A stretch of DNA of 34,284 bases. It comes from a virus. The position numbers and the translations under genes were made by a program. Location: IMG/VR virus record IMGVR_UViG_3300008050_000145, positions 1 to 34,284 of that record; one strand, written 5' to 3'. Numbering within the stretch: the first letter of the stretch is position 1; every line of letters starts with the position of its first letter. The notes beneath the pieces are model-generated. The model searched no databases. It was given only the letters and a program-made list of their open reading frames with translations, and had not been told where the DNA came from. Of this stretch, positions 16,722 to 34,284 are shown piece by piece.

Positions 16722-17795
16722 ATGAAGATTGCTCTCTACTCAGATCTTCATGCTCATCCGTACAACAACGGGGTTATATTAGAGCACGGTGTTAATAGCC
16801 GCGTGATGGATGCTGCGCGTGTTATTGAACAGGTGTATTCGTATGCTGCAGAGCATGAAGTAGATTACGTGGTCTTTGGTGGGGACCTATTCGATAGACG
16901 TAAGTCTATTGACGTCAACACCTACAACACTATCCACAGATTTATCTACGAATGGTCCAGGCAGGTATCATCTATAATGATACCTGGAAATCATGACCAA
17001 GCCAATAAGTCGGGCACTGTCCATGCTCTGGAGAGGTTTCATTCCACAGATTGCACGGTTATTACTCAACCTCACTGGTGTGAGCTGGTGGGTGGTGTTT
17101 ACCTGTTTGGGGTGCCTTACTACGATGATGGAGAGGTAATTGCTCAGCATATCGAGGAGGGGCTGCGGGAGAAGCCGGAGGGGTTGAGACATATTCTCCT
17201 TATTCATTACGGTATTGAGGGTGCCAAGGTAGGCCCCTCTGACTACGTCTTACCTTGTGAGTTGAAGCTTCCCATGCTTCGTCTTGATGAGTGGGACATT
17301 GTTTTTAGCGGGCACTACCATATAGGTCAGCAGCTAGGGAGCAAGTTCCATTATATTGGGTCTGCGATGCAGCACAGGTGGGATGACGTAGGTTTCGAGA
17401 AGAGTTTCATAGTCTATGACTCTGAAGATAATTCTATAGCGCGTATTCCTATTGAGGCTCCTCGTTTTCTGGAGGTACGAGATAAGACAAAGAACTATGA
17501 TGTATCAAATTGTTTCGTAAGGATAATACGAAACTACGATATAGATAATGATAAGAAAAGTAAGATAGAAGAGAAGTTAAAATGTCGGGGGGCATTAGCT
17601 GTTGAGTTCAGATACGAGCCTGAAAAAGTAAAAGATACTGCTTCAGAACGTATAGAGTTCTCTGAGTCTGGTGGAGATTATCAGATTTTAGATGACTATA
17701 TGGCTTCAGATCTGATAGATACATCGCTGTTGGATAGGGATAGACTTCTTGATATAGGCAAGAAGATCCTTTCACAGGCGATGGATAAGATATGA
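16722..17795 (+). CDS. SbcD/Mre11-type nuclease subunit (gp47-like)
   Basis: A 357-residue calcineurin-fold phosphoesterase of the SbcD/Mre11/gp47 class. Metal-site motifs are DLHAH (8-12), GGDLFD (53-58), GNHD (89-92), a His in LLIHYG, and GHYH (197-200). With the SbcC/Rad50-like ATPase at 24007 it would form the end-resecting nuclease that produces ssDNA for RecA and trims DNA ends. The length matches the phage gp47 group. In most phages the two subunit genes are adjacent; here about 6 kb, including the minus-strand block, separates them. Its stop overlaps the next start as ATGA. Confidence 0.9.
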   Translation: MKIALYSDLHAHPYNNGVILEHGVNSRVMDAARVIEQVYSYAAEHEVDYVVFGGDLFDRRKSIDVNTYNTIHRFIYEWSRQVSSIMIPGNHDQANKSGTVHALERFHSTDCTVITQPHWCELVGGVYLFGVPYYDDGEVIAQHIEEGLREKPEGLRHILLIHYGIEGAKVGPSDYVLPCELKLPMLRLDEWDIVFSGHYHIGQQLGSKFHYIGSAMQHRWDDVGFEKSFIVYDSEDNSIARIPIEAPRFLEVRDKTKNYDVSNCFVRIIRNYDIDNDKKSKIEEKLKCRGALAVEFRYEPEKVKDTASERIEFSESGGDYQILDDYMASDLIDTSLLDRDRLLDIGKKILSQAMDKI

Positions 17796-18352
17796 ATTTG
17801 TATGTTCTTTTGTTTACTACGTTGTTGGTAGCTGTGACCCCTTTAGACGCGCGAGGAGATACCACACATGATGTGGTATTTGATGCTGTTTTAGTGGACG
17901 TAGCTTTGGAGCAGTGTGGTTCGTCCACGTCAGACAGCGTGAACCACAGGCTCCTTTCTGATCTGCTTTCTATAGAGCGGGCTGCGGGTATCCCAGAAAA
18001 GTATAGGGGGATGGTATTAGCTGCTGCGTGCAGTGAGTCACGTTATAGTTCGAAAGCTCGTGGCGACGAGGGTAAAGCCATAGGTATTTTGCAGTTGTGG
18101 CCTTGGTGGGAGAGGGTGTATCAGGTAGATCGCACAGACCCCTATGATTCAGCAGATGCCTGGACTGGTCAGATAATGAAGGCGTTGCCCAAGGCTCGAC
18201 GTAAGTGTGGAAAGCGGCGTGGGTTTGTGTCTGCGTGGGCTTGGGTAGCTTCGGGGCCGAAGGGTTGGAGGTGCCGGGCTCCCCGTCACTACAAGCGCCT
18301 AAGGCGGTGGCAACGGCTCGTGAGAGAGCGTCTTCAAGATTATGAAGAGTAG
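17792..18352 (+). CDS. Secreted lysozyme-like lytic transglycosylase
   Basis: A 186-residue protein with an N-terminal hydrophobic signal-like segment (LYVLLFTTLLVAVTPLDA). The mature domain reads RGMVLAAACSESRY with a candidate catalytic Glu at 82, then KAIGILQLWPWW, a match to the Glu...GxxQL/W pattern of SLT/GEWL-type lytic transglycosylases, and a basic Arg-rich C-terminus. It would cleave peptidoglycan, either as the phage endolysin exported by the host or as an envelope-degrading virion enzyme. It starts within the ATGA overlap with the SbcD-like gene and is followed directly by two tRNA genes. The family call is good; the lysis role is likely. Confidence 0.8.
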   Translation: MNLYVLLFTTLLVAVTPLDARGDTTHDVVFDAVLVDVALEQCGSSTSDSVNHRLLSDLLSIERAAGIPEKYRGMVLAAACSESRYSSKARGDEGKAIGILQLWPWWERVYQVDRTDPYDSADAWTGQIMKALPKARRKCGKRRGFVSAWAWVASGPKGWRCRAPRHYKRLRRWQRLVRERLQDYEE

Positions 18353-18355
18353 TTA

Positions 18356-18429
18356 ACCCTCGTAGCTCAGCTGGACAGAGCAACGGCCTTCTAAGCCGTG
18401 GGTCACAGGTTCGAGTCCTGTCGGGGGTG
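18356..18429 (+). tRNA. tRNA-Arg (anticodon TCT)
   Basis: The 74-base sequence folds into a full cloverleaf: acceptor ACCCTCG / CGGGGGT, D-arm GCTC...GAGC, anticodon arm ACGGC-CTTCTAA-GCCGT, five-base variable loop, T-arm ACAGG-TTCGAGT-CCTGT and discriminator G. CCA is not encoded. It reads AGA codons, which the phage genes use often. Confidence 0.95.
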
Positions 18430-18434
18430 TTTAG

Positions 18435-18507
<73 letters not shown>

Positions 18508-18508
18508 T

Positions 18509-19099
18509 TTATATCCCTAGATGGCAGAGTTCTTGTTTGACTGTTTCGATAAGCGCCGAGTGGTCCACGGTCCAGCCTGCGTATTTGCCCCCTAGATGGT
18601 CCGGGTCTCCGTCTGTCCCTTTAAGTACCCAGATTGATGCGTGTACTAGTTCGTGTATTAGACTGCTTCTACATATCTGGGTTTCTCTGTCTTTTTTTAC
18701 CCAGATGGTACCTTTTGTGTGAGCTATACCTATAGCTCTGAGATTGTCGCGGTACGTACCATCCATTCGGTACCCGCGAGTAGATCGTACTTTCTCTCCC
18801 CACAAGATCATCATTTTGTGTAAGTTCTTCTTAATTAAATTGAGAGGATCGCCAAACATGTCTAACCAGTGCATATAGAATATTTTCATAGCTATAGAGA
18901 CTTGTATAGGGTCGGCTGTGGAACACTCAGGCGTGACGTGCCATGCGTTTTCCCACCCAGGTAGTTTTACTAGTTGTTTATCCTTACTAGAATTACACGT
19001 GTACAGGGCGTTTCCTCCCCGTAGGGTGCCGCTCGCAGTGCAGGAACACATGAGAAGTATGAGGAAGGAAATGATGGTTCTTTTAGTGGGGGGGTTCAC
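18509..19099 (-). CDS. Exported HExxH metalloprotease-like protein, probable lipoprotein
   Basis: A 196-residue minus-strand protein with an N-terminal export signal (RTIISFLILLMCSC) and a possible lipobox Cys at 20, so it would sit in the envelope. Near the C-terminus it has an HELVH zinc motif (149-153) in LIHELVHASIWV, followed by His residues in DPDHLGG and TVDHSALIE that could be further ligands or structural. It is a metallopeptidase candidate, SprT-like or another gluzincin; substrate unknown. I chose the GTG at 19099 because AAGGA lies 4 bases upstream and just after the previous stop; an ATG at 19153 in frame would overlap that gene by 47 bases. It is the last gene of the inverted cassette. 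Confidence 0.65.
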   Translation of the reverse strand: MNPPTKRTIISFLILLMCSCTASGTLRGGNALYTCNSSKDKQLVKLPGWENAWHVTPECSTADPIQVSIAMKIFYMHWLDMFGDPLNLIKKNLHKMMILWGEKVRSTRGYRMDGTYRDNLRAIGIAHTKGTIWVKKDRETQICRSSLIHELVHASIWVLKGTDGDPDHLGGKYAGWTVDHSALIETVKQELCHLGI

Positions 19100-19106
19100 G
19101 AATTCC

Positions 19107-19307
19107 TTAGTTAATCGTGTCGTCGGTGGGCATACGAAGAAGGATACGATCAAGTTCGATGCGGTCGTGTGCTGCCTGTAAGGCTTCTTGGAAGTTCTTC
19201 ACTTCGGACTTACGTAGCTCTTCAAGCATGTCCCAGAGCGCCTCATTCTCTTCTTCTAGTATTTCTATTTTGGATTGAAGCTCTGCTATTATTATCTCGG
19301 CTTTCAT
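19107..19307 (-). CDS. Small coiled-coil protein
   Basis: A 66-residue acidic/basic helical protein with a leucine-zipper-like stretch (IAELQSKIEILEEENEALWDMLEELRK covers residues 7-33; Leu/Ile at heptad spacing). It has AAAGGG 7 bases before the ATG. It probably forms a dimer or trimer, resembling small phage coiled-coil proteins. The 5' end overlaps the 105-residue membrane-protein frame by 65 bases and its stop lies 7 bases before the start of the HExxH gene. No function is assigned. Confidence 0.6.
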   Translation of the reverse strand: MKAEIIIAELQSKIEILEEENEALWDMLEELRKSEVKNFQEALQAAHDRIELDRILLRMPTDDTIN

Positions 19308-19560
19308 GTTGGACCCTTTCTGTTTTATGAATTCTTTGGGTGACTGCGGTGGCCACGTCGTACTCGGCAGAGTTTATGGTTATGTGGATATTTAGATTTT
19401 CGTATAAATAGATATTAGAAAACATGTTTTTTTTTATAAGATTCTCTATATCAGTCTTTTTAATCCTTCTATTTTCTATGTGCGCTCCTATGCCTATACC
19501 TAATGCGAATGTACATATTGTAGTAATTACGTATAGTAGCGTGTCTGGTGTGGTCTCCAT
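19243..19560 (-). CDS. Small membrane-anchored protein
   Basis: A 105-residue frame with one membrane segment at about residues 8-26 (LLYVITTICTFALGIGIG), then a basic region and a beta-like stretch (NIHITINSAEYDVATAV). A GGGGGAG ribosome site lies a few bases before the ATG. The last 22 residues (from about 84) overlap the next gene in another frame and have an unusual Arg/Asn-rich composition, so the C-terminus may have been extended by loss of an earlier stop. Function unknown. Confidence 0.5.
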   Translation of the reverse strand: METTPDTLLYVITTICTFALGIGIGAHIENRRIKKTDIENLIKKNMFSNIYLYENLNIHITINSAEYDVATAVTQRIHKTERVQHESRDNNSRASIQNRNTRRRE

Positions 19561-19572
19561 ATCTCCCCCGTT

Positions 19573-19932
19573 TTAAATTATGGTGTGGTCTGGGTCGTTT
19601 TTTGTGTCCCCTTCTTTGTAAACGGTAGGGGCGGTTAATCTCCCCTCCATGGAGATACAACCTGCGTTTATCAACCTCACTTCTACGTTCCAATCGAGGG
19701 AGAAGAATACGATTTCCCCTTTTGGGGAAACTCTTATCGGCCCGAGGATGTCACCCATAAAGACTGACTGCCCCCCTATGAAACACCCAACTGTATATTT
19801 ACTAGGGGGGCTCGGTAGTTCGATTTTGGGGGGACTGGGGGCTAGTAGATTGACTGCGGCTAAGAGCATCGCTCCTAACGTAGGCATACATATCCAGAAT
19901 AGAGATTTCTTTAGTATGTTGTTCTTATTCAC
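19573..19932 (-). CDS. Signal-anchored hypothetical protein
   Basis: A 119-residue protein with an N-terminal membrane or signal segment (SLFWICMPTLGAMLLAAVNLL, residues 10-30), then a Pro-rich linker (APSPPKIELPSPPSK) and a short beta-rich domain with two Cys (GCFIGG, AGCISM) that could pair outside the membrane. It begins with a GTG that overlaps the last codons of the MopE/vWA gene, so both are translated together. No family recognised. A partner role for the large surface protein is possible but unproven. Confidence 0.55.
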   Translation of the reverse strand: MNKNNILKKSLFWICMPTLGAMLLAAVNLLAPSPPKIELPSPPSKYTVGCFIGGQSVFMGDILGPIRVSPKGEIVFFSLDWNVEVRLINAGCISMEGRLTAPTVYKEGDTKNDPDHTII

Positions 19933-21841
19933 AAATGTTCTCGTCTAGTATTTCCAGGAGGTGGGTGTACATCACCCCAGGGTCTGGTGTTAATTCGAAC
20001 CACTCCCCTCCTGTGGCAACGGCGACGGGTGCCCACCCGTTTTCTAAAAATCCGTTTTCCTTGGAGGAGTTATTTGTAAATGCGTAGACGTTCAGGTCTT
20101 CTACAGCCTGGGTAGTTGCTATCAAGTCTGTTTGCTTGATGCTGGGGTCTAAGTAGCTTTGCCCTTCTTCGTCCGTGAATACGATCACTACTCTGTTAGC
20201 GTCTTCCCTCCAGGAGAATGCAAAGCTACTCAGAACAGGGCTGGAGTTGACCTTGTTCTCCCACAGTAAAAGGTCTTTGTCGGGGGGAGTGGCGGGAGTA
20301 GCTATGCTGAACAAGGATAAATAGAGGGCGTCGTAGAGCATTTCTCTACCACCACTGAGGCTGGGGGCGTCGGTAGCTAGGGTGGTTACAAAGGTTTGGA
20401 AGTCTGTAAAGTTAGTGAGGATCACTAACTCTTCTACTCCTCCGAATTTGGTAATGGGCCCAACTGCCATACCCCACTGGATGACCTCTTCGTCCGAGTA
20501 GTTAGAGGCGAACATCGTAAGAGCTTGCTTTACAGCCTCTATTTCTTCGGACATGCTCCCGGACCAGTCTACTAAGAATAGAATATCTGTGTCTTTTAGC
20601 TCTTTTCCGTCGTCTACGAGTCCGTCGCAGTCATCGTCAGTACCGTTACAATTATCGGAGTCTTCGGGTAATACCTCTCCATCACAGAATCCTGGTTGAA
20701 AAGATTCTTCCAGGTAATTACCCCACACGCCTTCTTCGCAGATGATTTCCCCAGGTAAACAAATACCTATACCACTGGTACCGTCAGGTCCTGTGTAGCA
20801 TCCGGCGACTAGAGCCTCGTCTATAAGCTCGTCACAGTCGTCGTCAAACTTGTTACATGCCTCTACCTCCATCTCCATCCCTACGAGGGGGTCACAGTTG
20901 GGGTTGAGAGAGGGGTAGTAAGAGCAAGCAGCTTGGCAGGGGGAAGTTATAAACTCTATACACTCAGGTGTTTTACACTCACATGATTTAAAGCCCTGTC
21001 CGCACAGTAACGGCTCTTCTGCACAGGGGATAAGGATCCCAACCATGTCTTCTGTACAACCGCAGTCTAGATCTTCGTCTACAAGCCCGTTGCAGTTGTC
21101 GTCTAGGTTGTTGCAGATCTCTTTTTCTACTGCAGGGGCTGTGCAAGATATCCAGTTACCGGAGATGCAGTACTCCACACCACTTCCACAAGAAGTAAAA
21201 CACTCTTGAATAAGATCTTCATCTACGAGACCGTCACAGTCGTTATCCAGATTGTCACACGCTTCAGAAGGAACCAGTCCGCATACCCCACAAGCGTTGG
21301 TCTGGCTCTCGTCTATCTGGCCGTCACAGTCGTTGTCTTTGTAGTCACATATCTCTTCTGTACAGGGGGTAACGCATTCCCCGTACTCGTAGTGCCCTTT
21401 ATTGCAGTATATCTTTTGGGCACCAGGAAATCCGTTCTCTGTCGTACAGTCGTTTTCTCCTTGCTCAAAGACAGAGGGGTCGCATTCGAAGTACTCCTCA
21501 CATTCTCCTACTTCTATCACCTGAGGAGGATCGATACAGATATCAACTATGACCGGCATCTGCCATATTGCGTCGAGCGGCGGGCAGAACCAGTACTGTG
21601 TGCGATAGCAGTCTAATGCATAAGTGTCTTCTTCTACGTCAGCGTCTTCTATAATTATATCTTCTATATATTCTTCTGTATCAGATTGTAAATAAGAGTC
21701 AGTACGTTGTTCGTGTGAACACCTAGTTAGGGACACTAGGATTAAAAGTAAAATAATATCTGCTATTAGAAAGTTAACAGATATAAGTTTTATTTTTCTG
21801 TTGTTCATGGTTAAGGCGTGGGTCTCCCTACCTATAACCAT
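19925..21841 (-). CDS. MopE-repeat and von Willebrand A surface protein
   Basis: A 638-residue exported protein. Residues 18-42 are a signal/anchor segment ending in Cys (SLTRC), a possible but non-canonical lipoprotein site. The next 370 residues are Cys- and Asp-rich with five copies of a Cys-x-x-x-Asp-x-Asp-Cys-Asp-Gly-x-x-Asp-Glu-like repeat (for example CDNLDNDCDGLVDE), the MopE-type putative metal-binding repeat. From about residue 418 comes a von Willebrand A domain with MIDAS DWSGS (425-429), a GREMLYDALYLS segment and VVIVFTDEEGQ. It would act in the envelope or outside, binding metal ions and a protein ligand. Such proteins are typical of bacterial surfaces, so it is unexpected in a phage. 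Start 21841; ATG 21808 is an alternative. Confidence 0.85.
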   Translation of the reverse strand: MVIGRETHALTMNNRKIKLISVNFLIADIILLLILVSLTRCSHEQRTDSYLQSDTEEYIEDIIIEDADVEEDTYALDCYRTQYWFCPPLDAIWQMPVIVDICIDPPQVIEVGECEEYFECDPSVFEQGENDCTTENGFPGAQKIYCNKGHYEYGECVTPCTEEICDYKDNDCDGQIDESQTNACGVCGLVPSEACDNLDNDCDGLVDEDLIQECFTSCGSGVEYCISGNWISCTAPAVEKEICNNLDDNCNGLVDEDLDCGCTEDMVGILIPCAEEPLLCGQGFKSCECKTPECIEFITSPCQAACSYYPSLNPNCDPLVGMEMEVEACNKFDDDCDELIDEALVAGCYTGPDGTSGIGICLPGEIICEEGVWGNYLEESFQPGFCDGEVLPEDSDNCNGTDDDCDGLVDDGKELKDTDILFLVDWSGSMSEEIEAVKQALTMFASNYSDEEVIQWGMAVGPITKFGGVEELVILTNFTDFQTFVTTLATDAPSLSGGREMLYDALYLSLFSIATPATPPDKDLLLWENKVNSSPVLSSFAFSWREDANRVVIVFTDEEGQSYLDPSIKQTDLIATTQAVEDLNVYAFTNNSSKENGFLENGWAPVAVATGGEWFELTPDPGVMYTHLLEILDENICE

Positions 21842-21876: not shown

Positions 21877-23586
21877 TTATCCGTTACTAGATCCGTATAT
21901 AGAGGAAAATATTCCTTCTTTATTATCTATAAGTACCGCTGCTATCATCTTTCTGTTTCCCACGTATCCTTTTCTGGCGTGCCACTTATCTTCCCCAGAC
22001 AGGCTAGGCAGTTGATAGCGTGTGAAGCCCCGATCCTCCTCTATCTTTTCGTAGTGAAGGTGTCCCGTAAATGCCATGTGGTGGGCACATCGCCCCCAGT
22101 CGTGGGGAGCCTCTATTGCTGCCAATCTGGCGAGGTCGCTTGTTTTCGTAACGGCGTCACCATGGTGAAAGCACAGCAAGTTACTGTCGTATACAATGTA
22201 TTGACGGCTCTGAGCGCACTTGATGGTGGTGACAGAGTCACAGTTGTTATACCAAGCTTGGAGGTAGAGGTGGAGGCTTATACTGAGGATACGGTCGTGG
22301 TTACCCGCCATCAGAACTAACTCTACAGGAGCGACTTGCCGCAGGAGGTCAATGTACAAGGTCATGAGGTCGCATCCTGTGGAGAGGATGTCAGCCATGT
22401 TCCCGTCGTTATCTTGGGGAGTACCTTTGGTGGTGGTCCCTGCGTATGTGTCAGCGTTAAAGAAGTCGGAGCCAATGCCCATAATGATTTTTTCAGGACG
22501 ACCGTATTTAGTTACGTCGGCTATGACTTTCTCAGTAGAGGAGAGGAGCCTCTCTTTTGCAGTAGTACGATTGTACTCTTCTCCACACTCGTATACTCCC
22601 CCGTATTTGCCCCAGTGAAAGTCGGTTGGGGTTATGACAGCTGCGAATTTTCTGTTTGAAGGAGGGATGCTTATTTTTTGTATTTTTCCTTCTTTCCTTT
22701 TACTGGTGATGTTTTCCAGTCTGCGAAGAGTACATGCTTCGTACTCACGCCATTTCTGTGCATCTTTTTGTATTTCTTTCCACTTGTCTCTCTCAAGGCG
22801 AGTGTAGAGGGCGGCTCGACGTATCTGGAGAGCTTCTTGCGCCAGCTCTTCTTCAGATTTCGACATAATTTCTTCGGGTGTAAATGGCTCTCGGTCATGT
22901 GTAATCTCGTGAACGCGTAAATATTTTACTATCCAGTTTCTGGGGAGTTGAAATGTTCTAGCTAGTTCGTTGACTGATGCTGGATTTCCAGCGAAGTTGC
23001 TGTATGCTCTTACCAAGTCTCGGTGGACTTCGCCTGGTAATTCTATTGCGTGAGGTACTCCAGGGAGATAGGTTGTGTAGGTGTCTCGGTCCTCGTCGTA
23101 CCAGATGCGCTTATCGCTTATGTATTTCTTTGATCCTTTCTTTTCTATTTCTTCTTTTTCTACCTCTGGAAGTATTTCTTCTTTTTCAAACAGGGGCTCT
23201 AATTCTATCAAGTAACCGACTTCTTGTCGGGCGACTAACCAGTGCCCCCACGGTTTTAACTCTTCTTCCTTAAAATCTAATTTGTGTCCGTGACTCTTGT
23301 AAAATGCGTTCCACTCTCTGTTTTTTATGTATCGTATAGCGGTTCTTCCTATTAGGGTAGCCGCTTCGTACCAGTGGTGGGATACGCCCTCTTCCTCTTG
23401 TTGTTCAAGAGAAAATGCCCGTACATAATTTCTTACTTCAATTACTTCTTCTTGGGAGATGTTGAACTTTTCTGAGAGCGCCTTATTATTTATTCCCACA
23501 GATAATATTTTTTCTCTGTGTTCCCTAGCTATCTGGATTAAGTTTTTTTGACCACACAAACTATGATACCTCGTTCGTGACAGCAT
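21877..23586 (-). CDS. HTH-containing metallophosphoesterase
   Basis: A 569-residue protein. The C-terminal half (from about 315) is a calcineurin-like phosphoesterase: TDFHWG (Asp322, His324), a GSDFFN segment in place of the usual GD, GNHD (428-431), a His pair in CFHHGDA, and GHLH (508-511). The N-terminal half is helical and charged, with two segments resembling helix-turn-helix units (NKALSEKFNISQEEVIEVR and VNELARTFQLPRNWIVKYL). That combination, DNA-binding-like N-terminus plus phosphoesterase, is seen in some phage proteins of unclear role, possibly DNA nucleases or phosphatases. It heads the minus-strand block and is divergent from the small gene at 23778. Confidence 0.8.
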   Translation of the reverse strand: MLSRTRYHSLCGQKNLIQIAREHREKILSVGINNKALSEKFNISQEEVIEVRNYVRAFSLEQQEEEGVSHHWYEAATLIGRTAIRYIKNREWNAFYKSHGHKLDFKEEELKPWGHWLVARQEVGYLIELEPLFEKEEILPEVEKEEIEKKGSKKYISDKRIWYDEDRDTYTTYLPGVPHAIELPGEVHRDLVRAYSNFAGNPASVNELARTFQLPRNWIVKYLRVHEITHDREPFTPEEIMSKSEEELAQEALQIRRAALYTRLERDKWKEIQKDAQKWREYEACTLRRLENITSKRKEGKIQKISIPPSNRKFAAVITPTDFHWGKYGGVYECGEEYNRTTAKERLLSSTEKVIADVTKYGRPEKIIMGIGSDFFNADTYAGTTTKGTPQDNDGNMADILSTGCDLMTLYIDLLRQVAPVELVLMAGNHDRILSISLHLYLQAWYNNCDSVTTIKCAQSRQYIVYDSNLLCFHHGDAVTKTSDLARLAAIEAPHDWGRCAHHMAFTGHLHYEKIEEDRGFTRYQLPSLSGEDKWHARKGYVGNRKMIAAVLIDNKEGIFSSIYGSSNG

Positions 23587-26254: not shown

Positions 26255-26341
26255 GCCGGAATGGCGGAATTGGTAGACGCAAGGGACTTAAAATCCCTCG
26301 CCCTTAAGGGTGTGCGGGTTCGACTCCCGCTTCCGGTACCA
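26255..26341 (+). tRNA. tRNA-Leu (anticodon TAA)
   Basis: The 87-base sequence has acceptor GCCGGAA / TTCCGGT, anticodon arm AGGGA-CTTAAAA-TCCCT, a long variable arm (GCCC-TTAA-GGGT) as required for leucine, T-arm GCGGG-TTCGACT-CCCGC, discriminator A and an encoded CCA at 26339-26341. It reads TTA codons, common in these genes. Unlike the other two tRNAs it encodes CCA. Confidence 0.95.
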
Positions 26342-31352: not shown

Positions 31353-31970
31353 ATGGCACGTAAACCAGTTACGTCTACGGACGACTTAGAAGAGGTCGGG
31401 GGGAAGACGAGTCTCGTAGTTAATACAGAGCGTTCTGTGGAGTTGCGTCGTATAGAGGTCATTAGGCGTAGATTGCGCGGGGAAACGATAATTGCTATAG
31501 CTGACACCCTTGGGTGCTCTGTAGGCACCATAAATAACGATATTAAAGCAATCAGGGATTCTAACGCAGAGCTTGTTTCCCAGTTTAGTCAAAAAGATTA
31601 TGTTGGAGAGACCCTTCAGACTTTTCAGAAGATAGAAGAAGAGGCGTGGCGTCAGGTCTTTGCGTTAGATGTGGGAGACTCTAGAAAGGCCAAGTTCCTG
31701 GATTCTATTCGTTCTACCCGTAAAGAGGCGATAAAGCTTTTACAGAGCAGTGGGCTTCTCCATAAGGAAGCAGAAAAAGTTGAAGTTCAGGTTACTTCAG
31801 AAGTGATTAACACTTGGTCTTCGGACCAAAAGATGCTGGTTGCAGACGCTTTAGTTGAGGCGGCCATCATTGATGTAGAGGTAGCCGAGGAGGAGGAGGA
31901 GTTTAACTCTCTCCCTTCTCGGGATGAAGATTTACAACTAGATGATATAGCTGAGTTTTTAGACGACTAA
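31353..31970 (+). CDS. HTH protein, candidate small terminase subunit
   Basis: A 205-residue protein with an HTH near the N-terminus (IIAIADTLGCSVGTINNDI, about residues 50-68), a helical middle with LQTFQKIEEEAWRQVF, and an acidic C-terminus (EEEEEFNSLPSRDEDL). Small terminases carry an N-terminal HTH, a helical oligomerisation region and a C-terminal segment that touches the large subunit. The position right after terL fits, although in many phages terS precedes terL. It could also be a transcription regulator. The stop overlaps the next start as TAATG. Confidence 0.55.
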   Translation: MARKPVTSTDDLEEVGGKTSLVVNTERSVELRRIEVIRRRLRGETIIAIADTLGCSVGTINNDIKAIRDSNAELVSQFSQKDYVGETLQTFQKIEEEAWRQVFALDVGDSRKAKFLDSIRSTRKEAIKLLQSSGLLHKEAEKVEVQVTSEVINTWSSDQKMLVADALVEAAIIDVEVAEEEEEFNSLPSRDEDLQLDDIAEFLDD

Positions 31971-32797
31971 TGACTAAAAGATCGTTTATAAAATGGGTAG
32001 GTGGTAAATACCGCAGTATTTATCAGATATTACCTTTCTTCCCGAAAGAGTATAAAACTTATTACGAACCGTTTATGGGGAGTGGTGTAGTTTTTTTTAA
32101 TGTTCAGCCGTATGAGGCTGTTTTAAGTGATAGAGAGTTTTCTCTAGTAGATGCGTTTAGGGCGGTTAAGAGAAATGTATCTTTGGTAGTAGAAGAACTA
32201 AGTTCTTTCGTTAATAACGCCGAGTCTTATTATAAGATAAGAGAGGAGTTTAATAATTCTACAGTAAGTGTTCCTGGCAAGAGGGGTGCCCAGTTTATTT
32301 ACTTAAATAAGTGTGGGTACAACGGACTGTATAGGGTTAATAAAAAGGGACAGTTCAATGTGGCCTTTGGGAAGAGAGAGGGCAGTCCTCACAAAGACTT
32401 TATGAATCTTAAGGGTTGTAGTGCAGCACTTCGCAATGCAACGGTTATGAATTCAGATTATAAAGAGATATTAGATCTTACACGGAGGGGGGATTTTGTG
32501 TATATGGACCCCCCCTATCACAAAGAGACTAGTAAATCTTTTGTGGGTTATAATTCTAAAGAATTTACTGAACGCGATCACGAGCGTTTGGCGCTGGAGT
32601 GTGAGTTCCTTACAAAGCGCGGTGTAATGTTTGCTCTTAGTAATAGTAATACTGATTTTATTTTAAATTTATATAAAAAATATAATATATACCCTATATA
32701 TACAACACGAACTGTGTCATGTGACATAAATAGTAGATTTCAGACCAAAGAAATCTTAGTGACTAACTACAAGAAGGATAGTAGTGAAACTAGCTGA
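31970..32797 (+). CDS. dam: DNA N6-adenine methyltransferase, Dam-like
   Basis: A 275-residue Dam-family methylase. KWVGGK (8-13) and the SAM-binding motif YYEPFMGSG (31-39) are followed by LSDRE, and the catalytic motif DPPY is at 180-183. The motif order FxGSG then DPPY is that of the alpha class, which includes T4 Dam and DpnM, usually acting at GATC. It would modify phage DNA, protecting it from host endonucleases or marking replication and packaging. It follows the candidate small terminase by a TAATG overlap and ends 14 bases inside the next gene. Confidence 0.88.
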   Translation: MTKRSFIKWVGGKYRSIYQILPFFPKEYKTYYEPFMGSGVVFFNVQPYEAVLSDREFSLVDAFRAVKRNVSLVVEELSSFVNNAESYYKIREEFNNSTVSVPGKRGAQFIYLNKCGYNGLYRVNKKGQFNVAFGKREGSPHKDFMNLKGCSAALRNATVMNSDYKEILDLTRRGDFVYMDPPYHKETSKSFVGYNSKEFTERDHERLALECEFLTKRGVMFALSNSNTDFILNLYKKYNIYPIYTTRTVSCDINSRFQTKEILVTNYKKDSSETS

Positions 32798-33278: not shown

Positions 33279-34284
33279 ATGGGACGCGCACGGGTGAGGT
33301 TTGGCCCTTTTTCGTTTGATACGCGAACTGGGACAGTCATTGGTTCCCATACCTATGATAATTTACAACAGGTAGATAGTACTGGGGGAGAATTAATATT
33401 CTCCAGTTTAGGTGGGGACGTTTTTGCGCCTAGTATGGATACCAGTCTACCGTTAGCTGTAGAAGAAGATGCGCGAAATGCAGCGGCTCGGTCTTCTACA
33501 GCCGACCAGTTTGGCTATAAAGGTGTTGAAGAGGTGTCGCCCCCAATTCCTCCTCCGGTTAGAACTTTGACAGTAAAGTCCAGGTACGCAGCCGCACACG
33601 CTGCGTCAGCTACTGTTAGTGGGACTGCCAAGATAGTGGGCGATAATGGATCTGCTATTATTTTTCGTAATACAGACGCCACCACGCATACGTTTACTAC
33701 CGATAATACTAAAGATGAGGCCGCTTCTACTAACCTTCTTATTGGCACTCTTGGTGTAAATACTCCTGCTTTGGCAGCTGAATCTATGCATTTAGCGTTT
33801 TCATTAGCTATTGCGGCTGGCACTTTAAAAATGACACTTACTCCTGCGGTATATACTGATGAAACTGAGCTGACTTTAGCTCAGAATGTAATTGGTAGAG
33901 CTGGTAATACTTTAGTTACTGTTCCCTCTCCAAATGGTATTTTTGTTATACAAAATCTTGTAGATATAGCGGCTACAGCCAGTATTAGAGGAAATTCTTC
34001 GTTTGCTGGTACTAATGCCACTACTCTTAACCTTATAAATACAGACCTCAGTCCCTACCCATTTACTACAGATAATACTAAAGATGAGACTACTTCTACT
34101 GCGTCCCTTATTGGAACTAATGGGGTTAATACTCCAGCTTTAGTAGCCGAATCTCTTCATTTAGCGTTTTCATTAGCTATTACTGCTGGCACTTTAAAAA
34201 TGACACTTACCCCTGCAGTATATACCAATGAAACTGAGTTACTTTTAACTCAGAATGTCCCTGGGGCTGCTGGCAACACTTTAA
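33279..34284 (+). CDS. Repeat-domain virion protein, 5' part
   Basis: The frame starts at ATG 33279 with AAGGAA upstream and runs open off the window end, so at least 335 residues are present. After about 90 residues it has domains of a type common in phage virion proteins, each ending in a LAFSLAI...LTPAVYT...QNV-G-AGNTL pattern. Two copies lie 123 residues apart. The second copy is cut by the window end. Context after the terminase and methylase genes fits a head, decoration or tail protein. The function of the domain is not established. Confidence 0.65.
   Translation, partial: MGRARVRFGPFSFDTRTGTVIGSHTYDNLQQVDSTGGELIFSSLGGDVFAPSMDTSLPLAVEEDARNAAARSSTADQFGYKGVEEVSPPIPPPVRTLTVKSRYAAAHAASATVSGTAKIVGDNGSAIIFRNTDATTHTFTTDNTKDEAASTNLLIGTLGVNTPALAAESMHLAFSLAIAAGTLKMTLTPAVYTDETELTLAQNVIGRAGNTLVTVPSPNGIFVIQNLVDIAATASIRGNSSFAGTNATTLNLINTDLSPYPFTTDNTKDETTSTASLIGTNGVNTPALVAESLHLAFSLAITAGTLKMTLTPAVYTNETELLLTQNVPGAAGNTL
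33693..34284 (+). repeat. Imperfect 369-bp tandem repeat within the last gene
   Basis: Segments starting at 33693 (TTTACTACCGATAATACT) and 34062 (TTTACTACAGATAATACT) match with a period of 369 bases. Conserved blocks include CATTTAGCGTTTTCATTAGC and GCTGGCACTTTAAAAATGAC in both copies. The second copy is truncated by the window end. The period is 123 codons, so the repeat duplicates a protein domain. Confidence 0.85.

Follow-up and report, generated by a model that had tools for sequence, protein, structure and literature searches.

Does a phage genome encode an exported protein that joins MopE repeats to a von Willebrand A (vWA) domain, and what might such a protein do for the phage? The question is raised by the 34,284 nucleotides of IMG/VR virus record IMGVR_UViG_3300008050_000145 (positions 1 to 34,284; this whole stretch is the window in what follows), which carry genes for a terminase, a DNA polymerase, a DnaB-like helicase, a UvsX/RecA-like recombinase and an SbcC-like protein, along with other phage genes. 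A first-pass annotation had placed at 19925-21841 an exported protein with five MopE repeats and a vWA domain carrying a DWSGS metal site (MIDAS), and this description is borne out by the ORF list, by Pfam and by a structure model.

The ORF is confirmed in coordinates and in strand (minus) and is 638 aa long as listed, while its true start is probably an in-frame ATG at about 21808 (MNNRKIKL...). With this ATG as the start, the protein would open with a lipoprotein signal of the ordinary kind, its last residue being Cys41. The product is strongly acidic (129 D/E, 25 K/R) and contains 41 Cys residues. The gene and the predicted parts of its product are as follows.

19925..21841, minus strand: MopE-vWA lipoprotein gene (ORF list, Pfam, 27-sequence alignment)
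21719..21808, minus strand: export signal, residues 12-41, ending at the lipobox-type Cys41 (Cys41 invariance, model helix, lipoboxes of relatives)
21362..21622, minus strand: N-terminal Cys-rich beta domain, residues 74-160 (model of residues 74-412)
20606..21361, minus strand: five MopE repeats with Cys-rich spacers, residues 161-412 (PF11617, repeat positions, DNA repeat D1)
19928..20605, minus strand: vWA domain, residues 413-638, with MIDAS D425/S427/S429 and E500, D504, D557 (model, Foldseek and VIA matches, invariant columns)

The MopE repeats lie at residues 165, 195, 243, 329 and 398, mirrored by a five-copy DNA repeat (D1) at 20604-21355. The window protein matches the Pfam family Cu-binding_MopE (PF11617) with an E value of 5.8e-11 and 42.9 bits, above the curated cut-off of 27, so the possibility that these Cys/Asp repeats do not match MopE fails. 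It is in the repeat, C-x3-D-[ND]-[DN]-C-[DN]-[GE]-x2-D-[ED], that the protein resembles MopE of Methylococcus capsulatus, a secreted copper protein that has no vWA head. Modelled separately, residues 74-412 give a pLDDT of 84, and a Foldseek comparison of the N-terminal and MopE part alone with the PDB returned no match at E <= 0.001, which does not in itself prove a new fold.

As to the vWA domain, the paired profile search foreseen in the first-pass annotation succeeded for MopE and fell just short for the head: VWA (PF00092) matches the window protein at E 1.5e-4 with 22.5 bits, the cut-off being 23.8, and it is found at E <= 0.01 in 20 of 27 relatives. While Pfam alone is thus marginal, the structure model settles the assignment. 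Built from 27 relatives, it has a mean pLDDT of 78.9, the vWA part being mostly at about 90 or above, and residues 413-638 match integrin and vWA chains in VIA at Z about 16 (rmsd 2.7-3.9 A); Foldseek likewise matches this part with integrin I and I-like domains in the PDB (integrin beta at E 3e-7). The vWA Rossmann-like fold is, in the model, present. None of the 38 vWA domains in the alignment departs from D425, S427 and S429 (the DWSGS residues) or from E500, D504, D557 and E558, and, as read from the sequence, the predicted MIDAS DxSxS and the other metal-loop residues are complete. Glu500 stands at the place of Thr in classical MIDAS loops, and integrin beta subunits carry Glu there too. 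The best PDB sequence match of the family profile is integrin beta-8 (E 4e-4), over an alignable WRxDAxR...DE segment. With integrin beta I-like and alpha I domains the phage protein thus has in common the complete fold, the DxSxS motif and the Glu and Asp of the other two metal loops; it differs in being only 11-18% identical over the fold and in being a bacterial-type lipoprotein with MopE repeats, without hybrid or PSI domains. The most variable part of the vWA domain is the loops around the metal site and the most conserved part of the whole protein is the MopE cores, a pattern that would suit a fixed metal site, changing ligand contacts and a rigid stalk.

The opposite end of the protein points to the cell envelope. 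The model places a helix at residues 14-38, within the export signal, and residues 42-72 form an acidic linker of low model confidence. Cys41 is invariant in all 27 aligned full-length relatives, and canonical boxes such as LPAC are present in close relatives; in the window copy an Arg directly precedes the lipobox Cys (SLTRC), which is atypical, and this copy would also be lipid-anchored. Asp at the +2 position after the Cys is the inner-membrane retention signal of E. coli lipoproteins. Only five of 110 scored members have Asp there (50 of the 110 have Ser), and its rarity favours the outer membrane as the most likely location, by a rule that comes from E. coli. Of the earlier interpretation, a phage-encoded and exported MopE and vWA protein anchored in the envelope is supported; an altered host surface, a block to superinfection or adhesion would be putative consequences.

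The protein is not peculiar to the window. Relatives were gathered by a repeat-core pattern scan and an alignment-based scan of viral contigs, among which a single-sequence search found no close relatives. The pattern scan returned 92 stretches, most encoding lipoprotein-like proteins with a MIDAS, the alignment-based scan returned at least 96 relatives, and a profile from 27 full-length members matches 172 of the 183 collected loci. After duplicate removal at least about 138 distinct members are found in IMG/VR, so that the family is widespread in phages, which the first-pass annotation had not foreseen. One member, L055, is carried by IMG genome 2716884848. Many uncultured, mostly large bacterial viruses carry one intact copy: within the window's subfamily almost every record has just one, adjacent same-frame matches being counted as parts of a single protein, and a 267-kb record holds two complete copies plus a partial one. 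Among full-length relatives that are 41-51% identical, over 40 Cys columns and about 100 positions stay invariant or almost so, an architecture conserved far beyond chance, and MopE repeats are detected at E <= 0.01 in 27 of 27 members. The gene is under strong purifying selection, the median dN/dS being about 0.06 among members at 68-93% identity, with dS often saturated. Of the 46 large carriers tested, half encode a terminase of the Terminase_6N (T4-type) kind and a single one encodes the window's type; with at least two unrelated terminase types among its carriers, the gene is shared by unrelated phages. In two more distant subfamilies (L011-like and L010-like) the MopE repeats are retained and the vWA domain is divergent.

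The family was previously unnamed. There was no convincing match in PHROGs (best E 0.0018, in five of 27 members), none in NCBIfam, none in the 50,697 phage records of INPHARED queried with three different members, and none in the 72,556 plasmids of PLSDB, and among the papers searched none combined MopE, von Willebrand and phage or dealt with the MopE-vWA family. Other proteins surfaced in the same collection. Two phage-contig proteins (L048:4615-6753 and L085:2008-4065) show a weak MopE match and, where vWA would stand, propeller-type matches (Vgb_lyase, SGL); judging by these matches they likely have the same stalk with another, propeller head, which fits the idea of one stalk that can carry different binding heads. 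A lipoprotein-like phage-contig protein with RCC1 repeats (L025:77-1588; PF00415, PF13540) was also caught by the MopE pattern scan.

The setting of the gene in the window is described by the following neighbours.

17792..18352, plus strand: probable SLT-type lytic transglycosylase, exported, facing the cassette (weak endolysin PHROG match, E 0.018)
18509..19153, minus strand: putative zinc metallopeptidase, exported or lipoprotein-like, HELVH, SprT-like (PF10263, E 0.007, below cut-off)
19243..19560, minus strand: 105-aa protein with one N-terminal membrane span (synteny)
19573..19932, minus strand: 119-aa membrane-anchored or exported partner whose start overlaps the MopE-vWA stop (same overlap in L101, L103, L104 and L105)
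21877..23586, minus strand: metallophosphoesterase of the recombination-nuclease type, first gene of the minus-strand block (phrog_704, E 6.7e-55; syntenic in relatives)

Three independent, related contigs (L103, L104 and L105) share one order: the transglycosylase-like gene, followed on the other strand by the small gene with the overlap, MopE-vWA and the metallophosphoesterase. This excludes the assembly join that had been considered as a source of the gene. In four more distant relatives, with terminases 74-77% identical and some of them contig fragments, the whole block is absent at that place, so it looks to have been gained or lost as a unit. The transglycosylase gene has no Pfam match, and the 119-aa partner has none in Pfam, PHROG or PADLOC. 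In L105 the place of the 105-aa gene is taken by an 82-aa ORF matching the bacteriocin/holin-like phrog_2429 (E 1.1e-4). SprT-like peptidases are recurrent neighbours of the family (neighbour cluster 13, 11 loci), and exported ones adjoin MopE-vWA in unrelated phages (L137:6944-7546, L011:9612-10241, L037:10507-11211), with no confident Pfam or PHROG name. Elsewhere in the window are three phage tRNA genes on the plus strand, Arg(TCT), Asn(GTT) and Leu(TAA), at 18356-18507 and 26255-26341, two of which sit between the transglycosylase-like gene and the envelope block; a D12-class adenine DNA methyltransferase gene at 31970-32797 on the plus strand, right after the terminase gene (PF02086, E 1.2e-53); and, at 33279-34284 on the plus strand, an ORF with internal repeats that runs off the contig end and probably encodes a structural protein.

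Across carriers, the next same-strand downstream gene has an exported or membrane product in 34 of 105 cases versus 59 of 494 among more distant genes (Fisher p 1e-6; exported and membrane products were called by crude criteria of hydrophobicity and lipobox pattern), and the gene upstream shows no such excess. This supports a link with the envelope in general terms only. The neighbours that recur encode a DUF5658 membrane protein, an SprT-like peptidase that is exported, a lipoprotein of trypsin-like type and an SLT transglycosylase; in other carriers the neighbours are GroES-like, ThyX-like, PurA/PurZ-like or DNA polymerase III alpha-like, names that are putative and drawn from sequence. Adenylosuccinate-synthetase-like genes (PurA or PurZ) lie just downstream at about 20 loci (cluster 8), for example at gene +1 or +2 in L004 and L126, and might be markers of 2-aminoadenine DNA. 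At gene +1 or +2 in L112, L113, L070 and L186 is found a 280-290 aa protein that begins MxTIIGxGxAGCNIAEKF, has a weak TrkA_N match and resembles tubulin/FtsZ-like or Rossmann proteins.

What, then, might the protein do? The reading that we favour, with moderate confidence, is that of a phage lipoprotein adhesin on the envelope of the infected cell, with a calcium-stabilised stalk and a MIDAS binding head, that alters the cell surface. The protein would be exported and lipid-anchored in the infected cell's envelope, most likely in the outer membrane; the acidic, disordered linker and the disulphide- and calcium-stabilised MopE stack would hold out the C-terminal vWA domain; and its integrin-beta-like MIDAS (D, S, S, E, D) would contact a ligand, protein or glycan, by way of a metal ion. 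Candidate ligands are surface components of the host, such as the receptor of the phage itself or of a rival, or an adhesin (matrix or cell-cell), and their binding would change the surface of the infected cell. The analysis establishes the architecture with its export signal, the intact MIDAS residues, the predicted vWA fold, the position in phage DNA, the strong purifying selection and the spread over unrelated phages; we infer from there a lipid anchor on this copy, its place in the outer membrane, calcium and ligand binding and the biological role. The invariant Cys, the scarcity of Asp at +2, the low dN/dS, the downstream envelope genes and the MopE proteins with another head also speak for this reading. 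As a first guess the likeliest use is superinfection exclusion, then envelope remodelling or assistance in lysis, and thirdly adhesion of infected cells. Phage superinfection-exclusion lipoproteins acting in the host outer membrane are known, such as Llp of T5 and Cor of phi80. These are under about 100 aa and without adhesion domains, while MopE-vWA is about 640 aa with a vWA head, and this difference in size speaks against the adhesin reading, as do the Arg before the lipobox Cys of the window copy, the nucleotide or replication genes, rather than envelope genes, that adjoin it in many carriers, and the strong sequence constraint, which is more readily expected for a fixed cellular target than for a decoy in an arms race. 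The PADLOC anti-phage models, a library that may not include exclusion lipoproteins, gave no match to MopE-vWA.

The alternative that survives best, while still unlikely, is lysis machinery, in which an outer-membrane lipoprotein would help to rupture the envelope, replacing a spanin pair; its helpers would be the small membrane protein whose gene overlaps its own, the transglycosylase, the exported peptidase and the holin-like protein. The block in the window and its close relatives, with its probable SLT transglycosylase, small membrane proteins and exported metallopeptidase, speaks for such a role, the downstream gene overlaps the MopE-vWA stop as is often the case for Rz/Rz1-type genes, and in 43 of 109 loci that could be scored a gene of SLT, trypsin-like lipoprotein, exported SprT-like or small membrane type is found no more than four genes away. 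However, the overlapping partner was found in the window's own clade only, and it is mainly from that clade that the case derives; many T4-like carriers have the gene among GroES-, ThyX- or purine-type genes; and a 640-aa MIDAS protein is unlike any known spanin, its binding head being superfluous for lysis. As a two-component spanin (Rz/Rz1) the pair was rejected, since the lipoprotein is not small and the partner is not general.

A rather improbable alternative is that infected cells are made to stick to uninfected cells, to particles or to the matrix, so that progeny would be likelier to meet new hosts. vWA/MIDAS heads are classic adhesion modules, and the fold matches are to integrin I and I-like domains; sequence alone cannot separate such a sticking adhesin from the surface-altering lipoprotein preferred here. 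Such a role would be comparable to that of CglB, reportedly the outer-membrane vWA lipoprotein of Myxococcus gliding motility, in which we know of no MopE array. Going by the description attributed to Islam et al. 2023 (cited in PMC10281127), CglB is, like the phage protein, a Cys-rich surface lipoprotein with a vWA adhesion domain, a likeness of description only, and unlike the phage-encoded MopE-vWA it is a cellular gene. Other phages do have vWA proteins, for example Streptomyces phage Jay2Jay and Acinetobacter phage ME3, with which MopE-vWA shares the fold at much lower similarity; for none of the listed ones does the description mention MopE repeats or an exported lipoprotein. More doubtful by far is a captured host gene for metal handling, copper binding being known for MopE of Methylococcus, after which PF11617 is named: the Asp/Asn/Cys loops of the repeats look more like calcium sites, and the constraint on the MIDAS and on the whole architecture points to binding rather than storage. 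Accidental capture or an assembly join without function for the phage can be dismissed, given at least about 138 distinct intact members, single copies in most records, shared synteny in independent contigs and low dN/dS.

With regard to the hosts, MopE repeats are common in Myxococcota and their relatives. No member of the family was found in 398, 395 and 388 genomes (0 in each) from the three phyla represented by an alphaproteobacterial, a Prevotellaceae and a Verrucomicrobiaceae genome, with no convincing match in about 1,180 in total. An empty result of this search carries little weight unless some genome scores positive; the same query matches 47 of 49 virus records in a whole-record search, which serves as a working control. 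Absence from these three phyla does not contradict the hint of a host among the former Deltaproteobacteria. In cellular contigs a generic vWA pattern gave, among the matches listed, three weak vWA proteins without MopE repeats, which does not amount to absence from cells. Shine-Dalgarno-like motifs precede 49% of starts over all carriers, versus 18% in shuffles, and only 30% versus 18% in the window; the excess over carriers speaks weakly against hosts without such motifs. A broader and tentative possibility is that one integrin-beta-like, calcium-stalked lipoprotein family is common to large phages without close kinship, the reason being a shared host group that is uncultured and rich in MopE (Myxococcota, SAR324 or similar). 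Acting on the infected-cell surface, it would be both a marker of that group and a new kind of surface-remodelling protein.

Overall, the locus represents a phage protein family that is real, well conserved and without a name, and its members are most plausibly surface-displayed binding proteins. The parts, MopE repeats and vWA, are known; their combination and phage setting are new. A highly constrained surface protein of 640 aa, present as a single copy in many uncultured phages, is missing from the phage protein-family libraries searched. It offers parts that can be tested, such as a MIDAS that one residue change should switch off. If it is an adhesin or an exclusion protein, it would far exceed the known small exclusion lipoproteins in size and elaboration as a surface tool, and its host range could connect many viral genomes that are still unassigned with bacteria for which few phages are known.
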